Positions 57,943 to 61,598 of a stretch of DNA of 64,000 bases are shown here, piece after piece. A model generated the notes under the pieces. That model made no database searches, was not told the origin of the DNA, and was given only the letters and a program-made list of their open reading frames with translations. The DNA lies in NCBI RefSeq assembly GCF_900182745.1, contig NZ_FXTY01000004.1, positions 186,001-250,000 on the forward strand. The letters run 5' to 3'. This stretch comes from Shimia sagamensis (lineage in GTDB: Bacteria; Pseudomonadota; Alphaproteobacteria; Rhodobacterales; Rhodobacteraceae). The stretch's first letter is position 1, and each line of letters opens with the position of its first letter. A program made the position numbers and the translations under genes.

Positions 57943-58506
57943 TTATTCTGAGCCGCGCGACAAGGCAGCAACACCCGTGCGGGCCACTTCGACCAGGCCC
58001 AGAGGACGCATGAGGTCGGCAAAGGCATCGATCTTTCCAGGCGTGCCGGTCAGTTCAAACACAAAGCTTTCCAGCGTGCTGTCCACGGCATTGGCGCGGA
58101 AGATGTCTGCCAGACGCAGGGCCTCGACACGTTTGTCACCGGTGCCAGATACTTTGAACAAGGCCAATTCGCGTTCCACAGACGCGCCTTCGACGGTGAG
58201 GTCATGCACAGCATGTACGGGCACGATGCGGCCAAGTTGTGCTTTGATCTGTTCGATAACCTGCGGCGTGCCGGTGGTCACAACCGTGATACGCGATAGA
58301 TGGCCGGTGTGATCAACCTCAGCCACGGTCAGGCTTTCGATGTTGTAGCCACGACCGGCGAAGAGACCAATCACCCGTGCCAATACGCCGGGTTCGTTGT
58401 CCACAAGCACAGCGAGAGTGTGGGTTTCGACCTCGTCTGAGAAGTTGGGACGTAGGTTATAAGCGGAGTGGCTCGTGGAGCCTTTTTTGATTTTTAGAGC
58501 AGCCAT
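57943..58506 (-). CDS. ilvN: Acetolactate synthase small (regulatory) subunit
   Basis: 187 residues: an N-terminal ACT domain (about 28-100; LAVLVDNEPGVLARVIGLFAGRGYNIESL in part) that binds valine for feedback inhibition, then the C-terminal ALS small-subunit domain. It stimulates and regulates the large subunit encoded 11 bases upstream. GGAGAG lies before the ATG. It is often also named ilvH. Confidence 0.96.
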   Translation of the reverse strand: MAALKIKKGSTSHSAYNLRPNFSDEVETHTLAVLVDNEPGVLARVIGLFAGRGYNIESLTVAEVDHTGHLSRITVVTTGTPQVIEQIKAQLGRIVPVHAVHDLTVEGASVERELALFKVSGTGDKRVEALRLADIFRANAVDSTLESFVFELTGTPGKIDAFADLMRPLGLVEVARTGVAALSRGSE

Positions 58507-58517
58507 GATCTCTCTCC

Positions 58518-60272
58518 TTACACCATCACCGCGCCGCCGGCTTGAATAACGCCCTGCGTGCTGGCTTCGCCCAGAAGCATTTCGTTGTGTGGCTTGCCCG
58601 ACGGGATCATCGGGAAGCAGTTCTCGTGTTTTTCCACCAGACAGTCAAAGATCACCGGGCCGTCGTAGGTGATCATTTCCATGATCGCGTCGTCCAGATC
58701 ATCCGGATCAGAGCAGATGATGCCTTTTGCGCCAAAGGCTTCAGCCAGCTTCACAAAGTCAGGCAGGGCCTCGGACCAGCTGTGGCTGTAGCGTTCGCCG
58801 TGCAGCAGCTCCTGCCACTGACGCACCATGCCGAGGCGCTCGTTGTTCAGGATGAACTGCTTCACCGGCAGGCGGAATTGGATGGCAGTACCCATTTCCT
58901 GCATGTTCATCAGCCAAGACGCTTCGCCCGCCACGTTGATCACAAGGCTGTCGGGGTGCGCCACTTGCGCACCGATGGAGGCCGGAAAGCCATAGCCCAT
59001 GGTGCCGAGGCCTCCGGAGGTCATCCAGCGGTTGGGATCTTCAAAGCCCAAGTACTGTGCGGCCCACATTTGGTGCTGGCCGACTTCGGTGGTGATGTAG
59101 CGGTCATGCTCTTTGGTCAGCGCTTCAAGACGGGACAGGGCGTATTGCGGCTTGATGATCTTGCCTTCCTGAACGTATTTCAGGCACTCCACCTTGCGCC
59201 AATCGCTGATCTGGCTTTGCCAATTGGCAATTGCGTCGCGATTCACGGTGCGGCCGCGGGCTTTCCAGACTTTCAGGATGTCTGTCAGAACGCTTTCCAC
59301 GTCGCCCACAATCGGGATGTCCGCCTTGATCACCTTGTTGATCGAGGAAGGGTCGATGTCGATGTGTGCTTTGATCGAGTTCGGCGAAAACGCAGAAATC
59401 AGGCCGGTGATGCGGTCATCAAAACGTGCGCCGATGTTGATCATCAAATCGCAATCATGCATCGCCATATTGGCTTCATAAAGACCGTGCATACCCAGCA
59501 TGCCCAGCCAGTTTTCGCCAGACGCAGGATAGGCGCCAAGACCCATCAAGGTAGAGGTGATCGGAATGCCGGTGGCCTCCACCAGTTCGCGCAGCAGGGC
59601 GCTTGCTTTGGGGCCCGAGTTGATCACGCCGCCGCCGGTGTAAAACACCGGGCGTTCGGCTTTTTCCATCGCTTCCACCAGCTCATTGATGGCAGTGATG
59701 TCGCCTTTGGTTTCCGGCTGGTAAATGGTTGTGTCGGATTTCTCTGGCGCGGTGTAGGTGCCATTGGCAAATTGCACGTCTTTTGGAATGTCCACCAGCA
59801 CCGGACCGGGACGGCCGGATTGCGCGACGTGGAAAGCCTGGTGCAGGGTTTCTGCCAATGTATCCGTGTCTTTGGCCAGCCAGTTGTGCTTGGTGCAGGG
59901 GCGGGTGATACCCACGGTGTCCGCTTCCTGAAAAGCGTCAGAGCCAATCATGAAGGTTGGAACCTGGCCGGTCAGAACCACGATTGGGATCGAGTCCAGC
60001 AAGGCATCCGTCAGGCCGGTCACCGCGTTGGTGGCGCCGGGACCAGAGGTGACAAGCGCCACACCAACCTTGCCGGTGGAGCGGGCATAGCCCTCAGCCG
60101 CGTGTACCGCGCCTTGCTCGTGACGCACCAGAATGTGACGAATATCATTCTGCTGAAAAATCTCGTCGTAAATTGGTAGGACAGCCCCTCCGGGATAGCC
60201 AAAGACTGTGTCCACACCCTGATCCTTCAGGGCTTGAACTACCATTTTTGCTCCGGTCATCTGACGTGTCAT
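58518..60272 (-). CDS. ilvI: Acetolactate synthase large (catalytic) subunit
   Basis: ThDP-dependent condensation of two pyruvates, or pyruvate with 2-oxobutyrate, at the head of valine, leucine and isoleucine synthesis. 584 residues. The catalytic glutamate lies after VFGYPGGAVLPIYD in the RHEQGAVHAAEG segment; the ThDP/Mg motif is near the C-terminus (INVAGEASWLMNMQE, where the usual GDGSF is GEASW, a variation worth noting). The start MTRQMTGAKMVVQ is preceded by GGAG; ATGs at 60275 and 60296 are alternatives. Its expression is governed by an attenuator upstream. Confidence 0.95.
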   Translation of the reverse strand: MTRQMTGAKMVVQALKDQGVDTVFGYPGGAVLPIYDEIFQQNDIRHILVRHEQGAVHAAEGYARSTGKVGVALVTSGPGATNAVTGLTDALLDSIPIVVLTGQVPTFMIGSDAFQEADTVGITRPCTKHNWLAKDTDTLAETLHQAFHVAQSGRPGPVLVDIPKDVQFANGTYTAPEKSDTTIYQPETKGDITAINELVEAMEKAERPVFYTGGGVINSGPKASALLRELVEATGIPITSTLMGLGAYPASGENWLGMLGMHGLYEANMAMHDCDLMINIGARFDDRITGLISAFSPNSIKAHIDIDPSSINKVIKADIPIVGDVESVLTDILKVWKARGRTVNRDAIANWQSQISDWRKVECLKYVQEGKIIKPQYALSRLEALTKEHDRYITTEVGQHQMWAAQYLGFEDPNRWMTSGGLGTMGYGFPASIGAQVAHPDSLVINVAGEASWLMNMQEMGTAIQFRLPVKQFILNNERLGMVRQWQELLHGERYSHSWSEALPDFVKLAEAFGAKGIICSDPDDLDDAIMEMITYDGPVIFDCLVEKHENCFPMIPSGKPHNEMLLGEASTQGVIQAGGAVMV

Positions 60273-60309
60273 CATTCTCTCCGTTACCGACGACATTACT
60301 AGCTCACAC

Positions 60310-60345
60310 AAAAAAGCCCCCGCTTTTGAGCGAGGGCGCATGGGG
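60310..60345 (-). terminator. ilv attenuator: terminator overlapped by antiterminator arm
   Basis: On the minus strand GCCCTCGCT (60337-60329) pairs with AGCGGGGGC (60324-60316) with one G-T pair, followed by six T. The bases 60335-60344 can instead pair with 60371-60380 (ten perfect pairs, GGCGCATGGG/CCCATGCGCC), and these two foldings share 60335-60337, so only one can form. It lies 38 bases before the ilvI start. Confidence 0.88.
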
Positions 60346-60362
60346 TACCATTATGGTGTCCG

Positions 60363-60410
60363 TTACCGGCCCATGCGCCTTATTCCGACAATGACGACTA
60401 GCCTTGGCAT
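60363..60410 (-). CDS. ilvL: ilv leader peptide
   Basis: A 15-codon ORF on the minus strand encodes MPRLVVIVGIRRMGR and then TAA. Six of 15 residues are branched-chain (L-V-V-I-V in a row, then I). GAGGA lies eight to nine bases before the ATG. Stalling at the L-V-V-I-V codons (about 60401-60387) would leave 60371-60380 free to form the antiterminator, preventing termination when branched-chain amino acids are scarce. Too short for normal gene finding, but position, codon content and RNA folding agree. Confidence 0.85.
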   Translation of the reverse strand: MPRLVVIVGIRRMGR

Positions 60411-60455
60411 CGTGTATGTCCTCAAGTGGGGTTACTTAATGTGTTCGGATCGGAC

Positions 60456-60482
60456 CTTATGACTGCTGCATCGCGGCGTCAA
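60456..60482 (-). promoter_or_regulatory. Possible ilv promoter
   Basis: On the minus strand TTGACG (60482-60477) and CATAAG (60461-60456) are 15 bases apart, about 45 bases before the leader peptide start. The spacing is short, so this is tentative. Confidence 0.4.
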
Positions 60483-60573
60483 CCGCGAAATCCAAAGAAA
60501 AACACCGCTCCGGGCATAAATTCTTTTCATTTGTTGCGTTGGGGTGTCGATTTGTGAAATTTGAGGAAATAAA

Positions 60574-60951
60574 TTGAGCAAATTCGGTTTAAAACAGATC
60601 ACACCGTTCCTTCCCTGCAGCACTTTGGCACGGCAAATTTCGTTTTATTGCGAAGCTCTGGGGCTTGAAGTTGGATTTGCGGCCGAAAACTATGCGTTTT
60701 TGCAATGTGGAGCGGTGGCGGTGCGCTTGATTGAGGTGGATCCCGGCAATGATCTGAAAGGCCGGGAGACGTCCCATTATATCGACGTCAAAGACATCGA
60801 TGCATTGTTTGCGGATATGCAGGAAGCATTGAGCGGTTTGCCGGACGAACGGGTGCGGGCACCCTTTGATCAGCCATACGGACAGCGGGAATTCCACGTG
60901 TTGGAAAACGACGGGAATTTGGTGTTCTTTGGGGAGGCGATAGCGGCTTAA
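60574..60951 (+). CDS. VOC (glyoxalase/bleomycin resistance-like) family protein
   Basis: 125 residues with one pair of beta-alpha-beta-beta-beta units: PFLPCSTLARQISFYCEALGLEV at the start and a C-terminal half ending FHVLENDGNLVFFGE, where the glutamate is the expected metal ligand. It resembles bleomycin-binding proteins but a glyoxalase-like or binding role is equally possible. The start is TTG with GAGGA eight bases upstream. Its last four bases overlap the end of the convergent response regulator gene. Confidence 0.88.
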   Translation: MSKFGLKQITPFLPCSTLARQISFYCEALGLEVGFAAENYAFLQCGAVAVRLIEVDPGNDLKGRETSHYIDVKDIDALFADMQEALSGLPDERVRAPFDQPYGQREFHVLENDGNLVFFGEAIAA

Positions 60952-61598
60952 AGCCCGACGCCGGTGCCTTGCAGGACGCCGTGTTCCATGGCGTAGCGGG
61001 TGAGGCCGGCTGTGGAGGAGATACCCAGTTTGCGTTTGATGTTTTTGCGGTGGGTTTCCACGGTGCGCACCGAGATATTGAGCTCGTTGGCCACTTCTTT
61101 GTTGGACTTGCCCTGTGCCAGTTGCAGCAGTACGGTTTGCTCGCGGCTGGTGAGCGGTTCGCGTGCACCATCCTCTGACGGCTCAAGCGAGCCTTTGGCG
61201 CCGGTACAAAGGTATTTCTTGCCATTCATTACGGCATCAATGGCGGTTTTGATTTCGTCAGTGGGCACGTCTTTGAGCACATAGCCCATCGCGCCGTGGC
61301 TTAGCGCGGTGGAAATGTATTCGGGGCTGTCGTGCATCGACAGGATCAACACGCGCAGGTCAGGGTCCAGCTCCAGCAGCATCTCGGTGGCTGTAAGCCC
61401 GCCGATCTCCGGCATATTGAGATCCATCAGCACCACATCCGGTTTCAGTAAAGGCAACTGGTCTACCGCCTCGCGACCGTTGGAGAGGGTGCCGACCACG
61501 GTGATGTCGTCATAGCTTTCCAAAATGGATTCGATGCCCTCGGCCACCATGGGGTGATCGTCGACAATCATCACTTTGATGGTTGTGTCTGAGGTCAT
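60948..61598 (-). CDS. LuxR-type response regulator
   Basis: 216 residues: receiver domain with phosphoacceptor Asp59 (VVLMDLNMP), acidic pair in IVDDHP and the lysine in GYVLKDVP; C-terminal LuxR/NarL helix-turn-helix (LTSREQTVLLQLAQGKSNKEVANELNISVRTVETHRKNI, in segments). Its start overlaps the stop of the histidine kinase gene (ATGA), so the two are co-translated. It most likely controls the divergent TRAP system. Confidence 0.95.
   Translation of the reverse strand: MTSDTTIKVMIVDDHPMVAEGIESILESYDDITVVGTLSNGREAVDQLPLLKPDVVLMDLNMPEIGGLTATEMLLELDPDLRVLILSMHDSPEYISTALSHGAMGYVLKDVPTDEIKTAIDAVMNGKKYLCTGAKGSLEPSEDGAREPLTSREQTVLLQLAQGKSNKEVANELNISVRTVETHRKNIKRKLGISSTAGLTRYAMEHGVLQGTGVGL

Follow-up and report, generated by a model that had tools for sequence, protein, structure and literature searches.

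In the enteric ilvGMEDA and ilvBN operons, ribosome-mediated attenuation uses a longer leader with four regions and a protector stem, which forces termination if translation of the leader fails. The element described here shares with these operons a leader rich in Leu, Val and Ile codons, an antiterminator and a terminator, but it has only 15 codons, its stop codon lies inside the antiterminator, the overlap between the helices is small and no protector stem was found. Among Alphaproteobacteria, attenuation of the ilvBN (ilvIH) operon of Caulobacter crescentus, with tandem Ile and Val codons in the leader, is reported in the excerpted text of PMC4117421, which cites Tarleton 1994; as here, that excerpt concerns an alphaproteobacterial acetolactate synthase operon with an Ile/Val leader and an intrinsic terminator. 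The same operon is under leader control in Corynebacterium (ilvBNC), but in a different phylum, according to excerpts of two papers (PMC11857589, PMC10272879), the title of the first naming a three-hairpin model. The trpL leader of Sinorhizobium, with 14 residues, is a similarly short alphaproteobacterial attenuator leader, but excerpts describe it as a Trp leader with a leaderless start, whose RNA and peptide are reported to act in trans (PMC10117765, PMC7298713). Attenuators that hop between genes are discussed in an excerpt of PMC2965389. Among the matches listed in a search of open-licence literature, we found no account of the present element in Rhodobacterales, which does not imply that it is unpublished, and no leader peptide described before a CflA-type gene.

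The window, that is, the whole stretch of 64,000 nucleotides of DNA of the marine bacterium Shimia sagamensis that was analysed, contains the following features of the ilvI-ilvN operon and its upstream region, all of them on the minus strand:

60482-60477 and 60461-60456, minus strand: promoter-like hexamers TTGACG and CATAAG, spaced by 15 bases, read from the sequence
60423-60419, minus strand: putative ribosome binding site GAGGA, 8 bases 5' of the leader ATG, read from the sequence
60410-60363, minus strand: leader ORF MPRLVVIVGIRRMGR, 15 codons plus TAA (ATG 60410-60408, TAA 60365-60363), from sequence and conservation
60401-60387, minus strand: regulatory codons CTA GTC GTC ATT GTC, positions -12 to -8 from the stop
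60379-60370, minus strand: 5' arm of antiterminator P1, GGCGCATGGG, from sequence and comparison
60344-60335, minus strand: 3' arm of antiterminator P1, CCCATGCGCC, from sequence and comparison
60360..60369, minus strand: P2 hairpin CCG-GUAA-CGG, nested in P1, with the stop codon in its loop
60347..60357, minus strand: small hairpin P3, ACC-AUAAU-GGU, not kept in all relatives
60335..60337, minus strand: bases common to P1 and the terminator, from comparison
60337-60316, minus strand: intrinsic terminator stem-loop, 8 pairs including one G-U, plus a possible U-A
60315-60310, minus strand: six-T tract of the terminator, from sequence
58518..60275, minus strand: ilvI, acetolactate synthase large subunit (NF006581, 1121 bits, cut-off 974)
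57943..58506, minus strand: ilvN/ilvH, acetolactate synthase small subunit (NF008864, 221 bits, cut-off 119)

Upstream of the operon there is thus a short, putatively translated leader with a ribosome binding site and with consecutive codons for the end products of the operon, and a putative intrinsic terminator precedes the first structural gene. Most of this agrees with the original prediction, which had named a 15-residue minus-strand ORF with an upstream GAGGA and an L-V-V-I-V run, as well as a terminator at 60337-60316 followed by six T; all of these are present in the sequence, and the ilvI and small-subunit genes that it placed downstream are borne out by NCBIfam. The ten-pair stem it proposed is real and its 3' arm lies where predicted, but the 5' arm, given as 60380-60371, is in fact shifted by one base. 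The likeness to the geometry of enteric ilv operons does not hold: an enteric-type protector stem was not found, as folding of the whole leader without a ribosome favours P1, which is predicted to form, and weakens the base of the terminator.

Several other observations concern the surroundings of the element. The window's IlvI is 99% identical to that of a Shimia MAG, its nearest named relative. A response regulator gene (60948-61598) lies near ilvI, and its closest family is MctR, at 277 bits and below the cut-off of 300. An ATG inside the 3' arm of P1 (60341-60339) is in frame with ilvI and would give a 607-residue ORF; since the length of the open frame differs among relatives, this ATG is probably not a start codon. 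The hexamers TTGACG and CATAAG resemble the promoter consensus; in the stretch kept upstream of the leader ATG, C[AC]TA[AG] is present in 88 and TTGAC in 95 of 106 relatives, with both in 77.

We then compared the upstream regions of ilvI at 110 loci, 30 from related genomes and 80 named, which are related to one another and include some genomes in both sets. The motif was recognized by pattern in 106 loci, of which 100 are non-identical around the switch, and by eye in two more with a changed P2 (L027 and L030); one locus (L069) is truncated by the end of its contig and appears degenerate, and one (L098, Nereida) has no attenuator upstream of ilvI. The covariance model R1, built from 66 of these loci, matches 260 of 295 family genomes at E<=0.01, some of them weakly, and R2 matches 128 of 149 at E<=1e-6; both counts are of the element irrespective of the gene that follows, and they include a few copies before an MFS gene. 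In a sample of the phylum, 13 of 299 genomes match at E<=1e-5, and all of them belong to the Rhodobacteraceae, the family of the window. On these counts (106 of 110 loci, and the R1 and R2 matches in the family) a chance feature was rejected. The original prediction named a lack of conservation in close relatives as one ground for its refutation; in these, leader length and the Leu/Val/Ile codons are conserved upstream of ilvI, and the helices show compensatory pair changes. An Rfam search of window positions 59000-61500 gave no match at the element at E up to 5, with two weak matches elsewhere.

Some individual genomes deserve mention. In Nereida sp. MMG025 (L098), the response regulator gene upstream of ilvI is kept, with the same protein end as that of 60948-61598, and the whole attenuator is absent, possibly through a natural deletion. 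In genome G072, ilvI occurs twice and both copies are preceded by an attenuator (L213 and L305). The second match of genome G174 (L215/L306, on G174:C6) is a decayed-looking attenuator in which the stop codon is missing from its usual position; the stretches examined contain neither ilvI nor an MFS gene. Three loci of the window's family (L162, L165 and L166) have divergent leaders that R2 missed or scored weakly. Among 13 ilvI upstream regions of other families inspected by eye (L149-L161), a leader is clearly present in one, L154 (MTTQLVLIRQPLSGRD); its P1 differs, and its stop codon lies in a hairpin loop. A second copy in the window's own genome was rejected, as R1 gives a single match there at E<=0.01 under stricter filters.

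We based the codon counts on 105 leaders, namely those of the ilvI set without L070, whose frame stops at the edge of P1. The start codon lies 15 codons 5' of the leader stop in 103 of 105 relatives. Leu, Val or Ile codons occupy positions -12, -11, -10, -9 and -8 in 104, 104, 104, 99 and 99 of the 105 leaders, and the neighbouring positions -13 and -7 in just 12 and 4. Moreover, rare codons are frequent in this block: at -12, 69 of 80 Leu codons are CTA, and at -10 and -8 GTA accounts for 55 of 94 and 60 of 88 Val codons. In 32 window ORFs picked mechanically, which represent one genome only, the background is 40 CTA among 1328 Leu codons and 84 GTA among 1062 Val codons. The window's own leader has no rare GTA, as its Val codons are all GTC.

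The same cassette was also found before a gene of a different kind. Outside the family, 11 members of the class gave strong R1 matches (L124-L134, E 8.4e-6 or better), most of the 57 R1 matches in the class being weak (E 1e-4 to 1e-2). None of the 11 has ilvI in the 1.5 kb fetched downstream, and all 11 have an MFS gene there; the MFS protein of L124 fits TIGR00710, Bcr/CflA efflux, with 217 bits (cut-off 200.9). R2 matches 19 of 385 genomes of the class at E<=1e-4, comprising 5 from the family, 11 with an MFS gene and 3 chance terminators. These last (L195-L197) are weak matches with neither ilvI nor an MFS gene in the fetched stretch and were rejected as members. In the order to which genome G464 belongs, R2 matches 9 of 17 genomes; these 9 come from three genera, and in all of them the match precedes an MFS gene. 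Within the window's family, 20 further loci picked for weak or second matches comprise 15 with ilvI, 4 with an MFS gene and 1 with neither. Two of four plasmid records, pP14_b of Phaeobacter piscinae and pTB1 of Roseobacter denitrificans OCh 114, carry the attenuator before an MFS gene, and no such attenuator was found in the other two, from Agrobacterium and Mesorhizobium.

Altogether the attenuators preceding an MFS gene are L124-L134, L198-L205, L214, L216-L218, L233 and L234. In these 25 leaders, Leu, Val or Ile stands at -10, -9 and -8 in 17, 22 and 21 cases, Val alone accounting for 17, 18 and 21; the numbers are 13 at -11 and only 5 at -12. The MFS cassette agrees with the one before ilvI in the length and register of its leader and in P1, P2 and terminator, and we therefore read the two as homologous. 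No Rfam match at gathering scores was obtained at the element in seven of these loci (L124-L126, L216, L218, L233 and L234). The ilvI upstream regions of 11 MFS-bearing genomes (L168-L178) show no Leu/Val/Ile leader by eye, and in the window's genome the fetched locus of the nearest MFS homolog (50% identity) has no R2 match even at E<=10. On the Agrobacterium and Mesorhizobium plasmids, the MFS relatives (54-56% identity) have a TPP riboswitch upstream instead (L235:2824-2940, 74.6 bits; L236:1824-1940, 75.4 bits). TPP is the cofactor of acetolactate synthase.

Folding of the lone window sequence is unremarkable (z -1.46, with 17 of 200 shuffles folding equally well); support for the helices comes from comparison. 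In the 66-sequence ilvI alignment P1 is near-invariant: 6 of 9 pairs never vary, a two-sided change occurs in one of the nine, and 10 stem columns are identical in all 66 sequences. The conservation of the P1 sequence exceeds the needs of pairing. As P1 hardly varies in this set, support for the helix was drawn from a wider sampling. An alignment of 96 sequences, including the 25 MFS loci, has two-sided changes in 14 of 18 pairs (52 such cells, against 11.9 in shuffles), and a second alignment of 62 further rows, made up of 59 full-length loci and 3 short extra matches with the downstream gene checked for L295 only, has them in 8 of 18 pairs (23 cells, against 6.9); both were aligned to a model holding the same structure, which favours that structure, and the shuffles ignore relatedness. 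Compensatory changes appear in P1, P2 and the terminator alike. Not every member has a perfect P1: among the 96 sequences, three of the pairs are broken 9, 11 and 19 times.

The stop codon lies within the hairpin loop in 104 of 106 ilvI loci, compared with a mean of 34 and a maximum of 47 in controls in which the next 14 bases were shuffled. A G precedes the stop codon and an A ends it in 103 of 106 ilvI loci. A strict GNRA tetraloop rule was rejected, because TAG, with which no GNRA loop can form, is the stop codon in 12 of the 25 MFS leaders.

Taken together, these features make it very probable that the window holds a ribosome-mediated transcription attenuator of the ilvI-ilvN operon. The control by Leu/Val/Ile codons that had been proposed is strongly supported, with leader length, codon positions and both helices conserved. 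The comparison supports the leader, the codons, the helices and the shared bases; we infer that the ribosome stalls, that the terminator base is clamped and that the operon responds to amino acid supply. During a shortage of charged Leu-, Val- or Ile-tRNA, the ribosome would stall at codons -12 to about -9 and free the bases just past its footprint, whereupon P1 could form with P2 nested inside. The outer two or three pairs of P1 would then hold the first bases of the terminator stem, so that closure of the terminator would stop short of the U tract and RNA polymerase would continue into ilvI. With charged tRNAs available, the ribosome would reach the stop codon in the P2 loop, in the middle of the antiterminator, where it would block P1, so that the terminator closes and transcription ends.

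We simulated the ribosome by folding at 30 C with its footprint and all RNA upstream of it removed. With an assumed footprint of 10 bases past the A site, P1 is uncovered with codons -12 to -9 in that site; codon -8 there leaves the outer pairs covered, and codon -7 and later ones block P1; with 12 bases the covering step comes one codon earlier. In the simulation, the Leu/Val/Ile block thus ends where P1 becomes covered, and with assumed footprints of 9, 10 and 12 bases the stall site frees the antiterminator and finished translation blocks it. P1 is also predicted to form without any ribosome (inner pair 0.96 over 100 sequences, below 0.5 only in L084 and L108), and at 0.93-0.96, with a weaker terminator base, when about 75 bases before the stop are included. 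An untranslated leader is therefore predicted to give read-through and not super-attenuation.

How P1 acts on the terminator is less straightforward. The original prediction held that P1 excludes the terminator through three shared bases. In the window three bases are indeed shared (60337-60335), of which the first two, 60337 and 60336, belong to both helices in almost every relative and 60335 in 35 of 70 ilvI loci examined, so that two are conserved in general; the competition is visible, but in equilibrium folding the exclusion is only partial. With a footprint of 10 bases, a stalled ribosome and P1 free, the bottom pair of the terminator forms at 0.62-0.72 and the fifth pair at no less than 0.96. 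In stalled-ribosome folding the two shared P1 pairs form at 0.20-0.29 only. With the ribosome at the stop codon, the bottom and fifth pairs both reach 0.98-0.99. To speak of an excluded terminator is thus too strong, as the core stays at or above 0.96 with P1 formed. The outcome also depends on how much upstream RNA is included: when folding covers the entire leader, starting 75 bases 5' of the stop codon, without a ribosome, the shared P1 pairs form at 0.60-0.64, the bottom terminator pair at 0.36 and the fifth at 0.81, and without the U tract, omitted because it is still inside the polymerase at the time of decision, the values are 0.38-0.53, 0.46 and 0.87.

The compatibility of P1 with the terminator core would suit a scheme in which P1 and P2 are no base-sharing antiterminator at all and the ribosome acts otherwise, for example through its distance to RNA polymerase or an exposed site for a pause or a factor. 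The junction between the two helices makes this unlikely. The arms of P1 and the terminator abut without insertion in 95 of 96 sequences (the exception is L217), and in 93 of 95 (L223 left out) the two bases at the junction are each able to pair in either helix. The shared base 69 is pairable in both helices in 153 of 155 sequences. It is A in three sequences; in L214, an MFS locus, and in L279, whose downstream gene was not checked, both partners are U, two cases in which the shared base and its partners have changed together, and in L222 only the terminator partner is U. From the sequences, direct competition between P1 and the terminator is limited to two or three bases, though evolution supports it. 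We take a clamp on the base of the terminator to be the probable switch. In the transcription complex the last terminator pairs must also pay for melting of the RNA-DNA hybrid, and holding two bases there may therefore suffice.

Whole-leader folding also showed that a AAGGAGCC-like ribosome binding region can pair with the GGCUUUUUU end of the terminator, as in L037, with a mean pairing of the U tract to upstream RNA of 0.44. This may be a trivial match of purines to pyrimidines, or it may hide the leader start in the read-through RNA.

Two further explanations place the signal elsewhere. The near-invariant bases of P1, with its identical stem columns, and the recurrence of nearly the same sequence before an unrelated MFS gene are what one would expect if P1 and P2 were bound by a protein or a small molecule in the manner of a riboswitch, with the leader codons merely adding to the control. 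We consider this very unlikely, as codon identity is the strongest positional signal, the codon block and the edge of P1 fit a ribosome footprint, the P1 sequence drifts in distant members, partly with compensation, and Rfam gave no match. Even less probable is an arrest of the ribosome by the leader peptide itself, of the TnaC type, which the C-terminus RMGR, kept in most of the ilvI set, would suit, but this end is conserved as nucleotides (CGC in 103 and ATG in 105 of 105 leaders), is lost in L070 and elsewhere changed with compensating RNA changes, and differs in the MFS leaders. In L064 and L068 (GCACATGGG and CCCATGTGC), in L075, L027 and L030 and in the group with CCTG-TAA-CAGG, the peptide end is altered and the pairing retained; in L070 the leader ends five codons early at a TAG on the edge of P1 (MATLVVIVGT), with P1 intact and a second stop still in the P2 loop. 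These changed or lost ends with pairing kept indicate that the RNA is constrained and not the peptide end, and a constraint on the peptide end as the main driver was rejected. The L070 sequence may be taken as a natural hint that the end of the peptide is dispensable.

The attenuator before ilvI is genuine and well conserved, and of a known kind with an uncommon layout. Most sampled genomes of this large family conserve it and Rfam has no model for it, so that its annotation is already feasible. The layout, unlike that of the textbook attenuator, predicts read-through when the leader is not translated. The occurrence of the cassette before a Bcr/CflA-type MFS gene is the less expected part and would surprise a specialist. 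We tentatively suggest, as a reading somewhat more open to doubt than to belief, that the element is a mobile, sequence-constrained module, tuned to Leu, Val and Ile before ilvI in Rhodobacterales and mainly to Val before the MFS gene in other Alphaproteobacteria and on roseobacter plasmids. The cassette gives a regulatory clue to the substrate of a family named only by drug efflux: if the suggestion is true, a transporter annotated for multidrug efflux would serve to provide valine. It would do so through uptake of valine itself or of a precursor, or else through the removal of some compound by which the cell is starved of valine.
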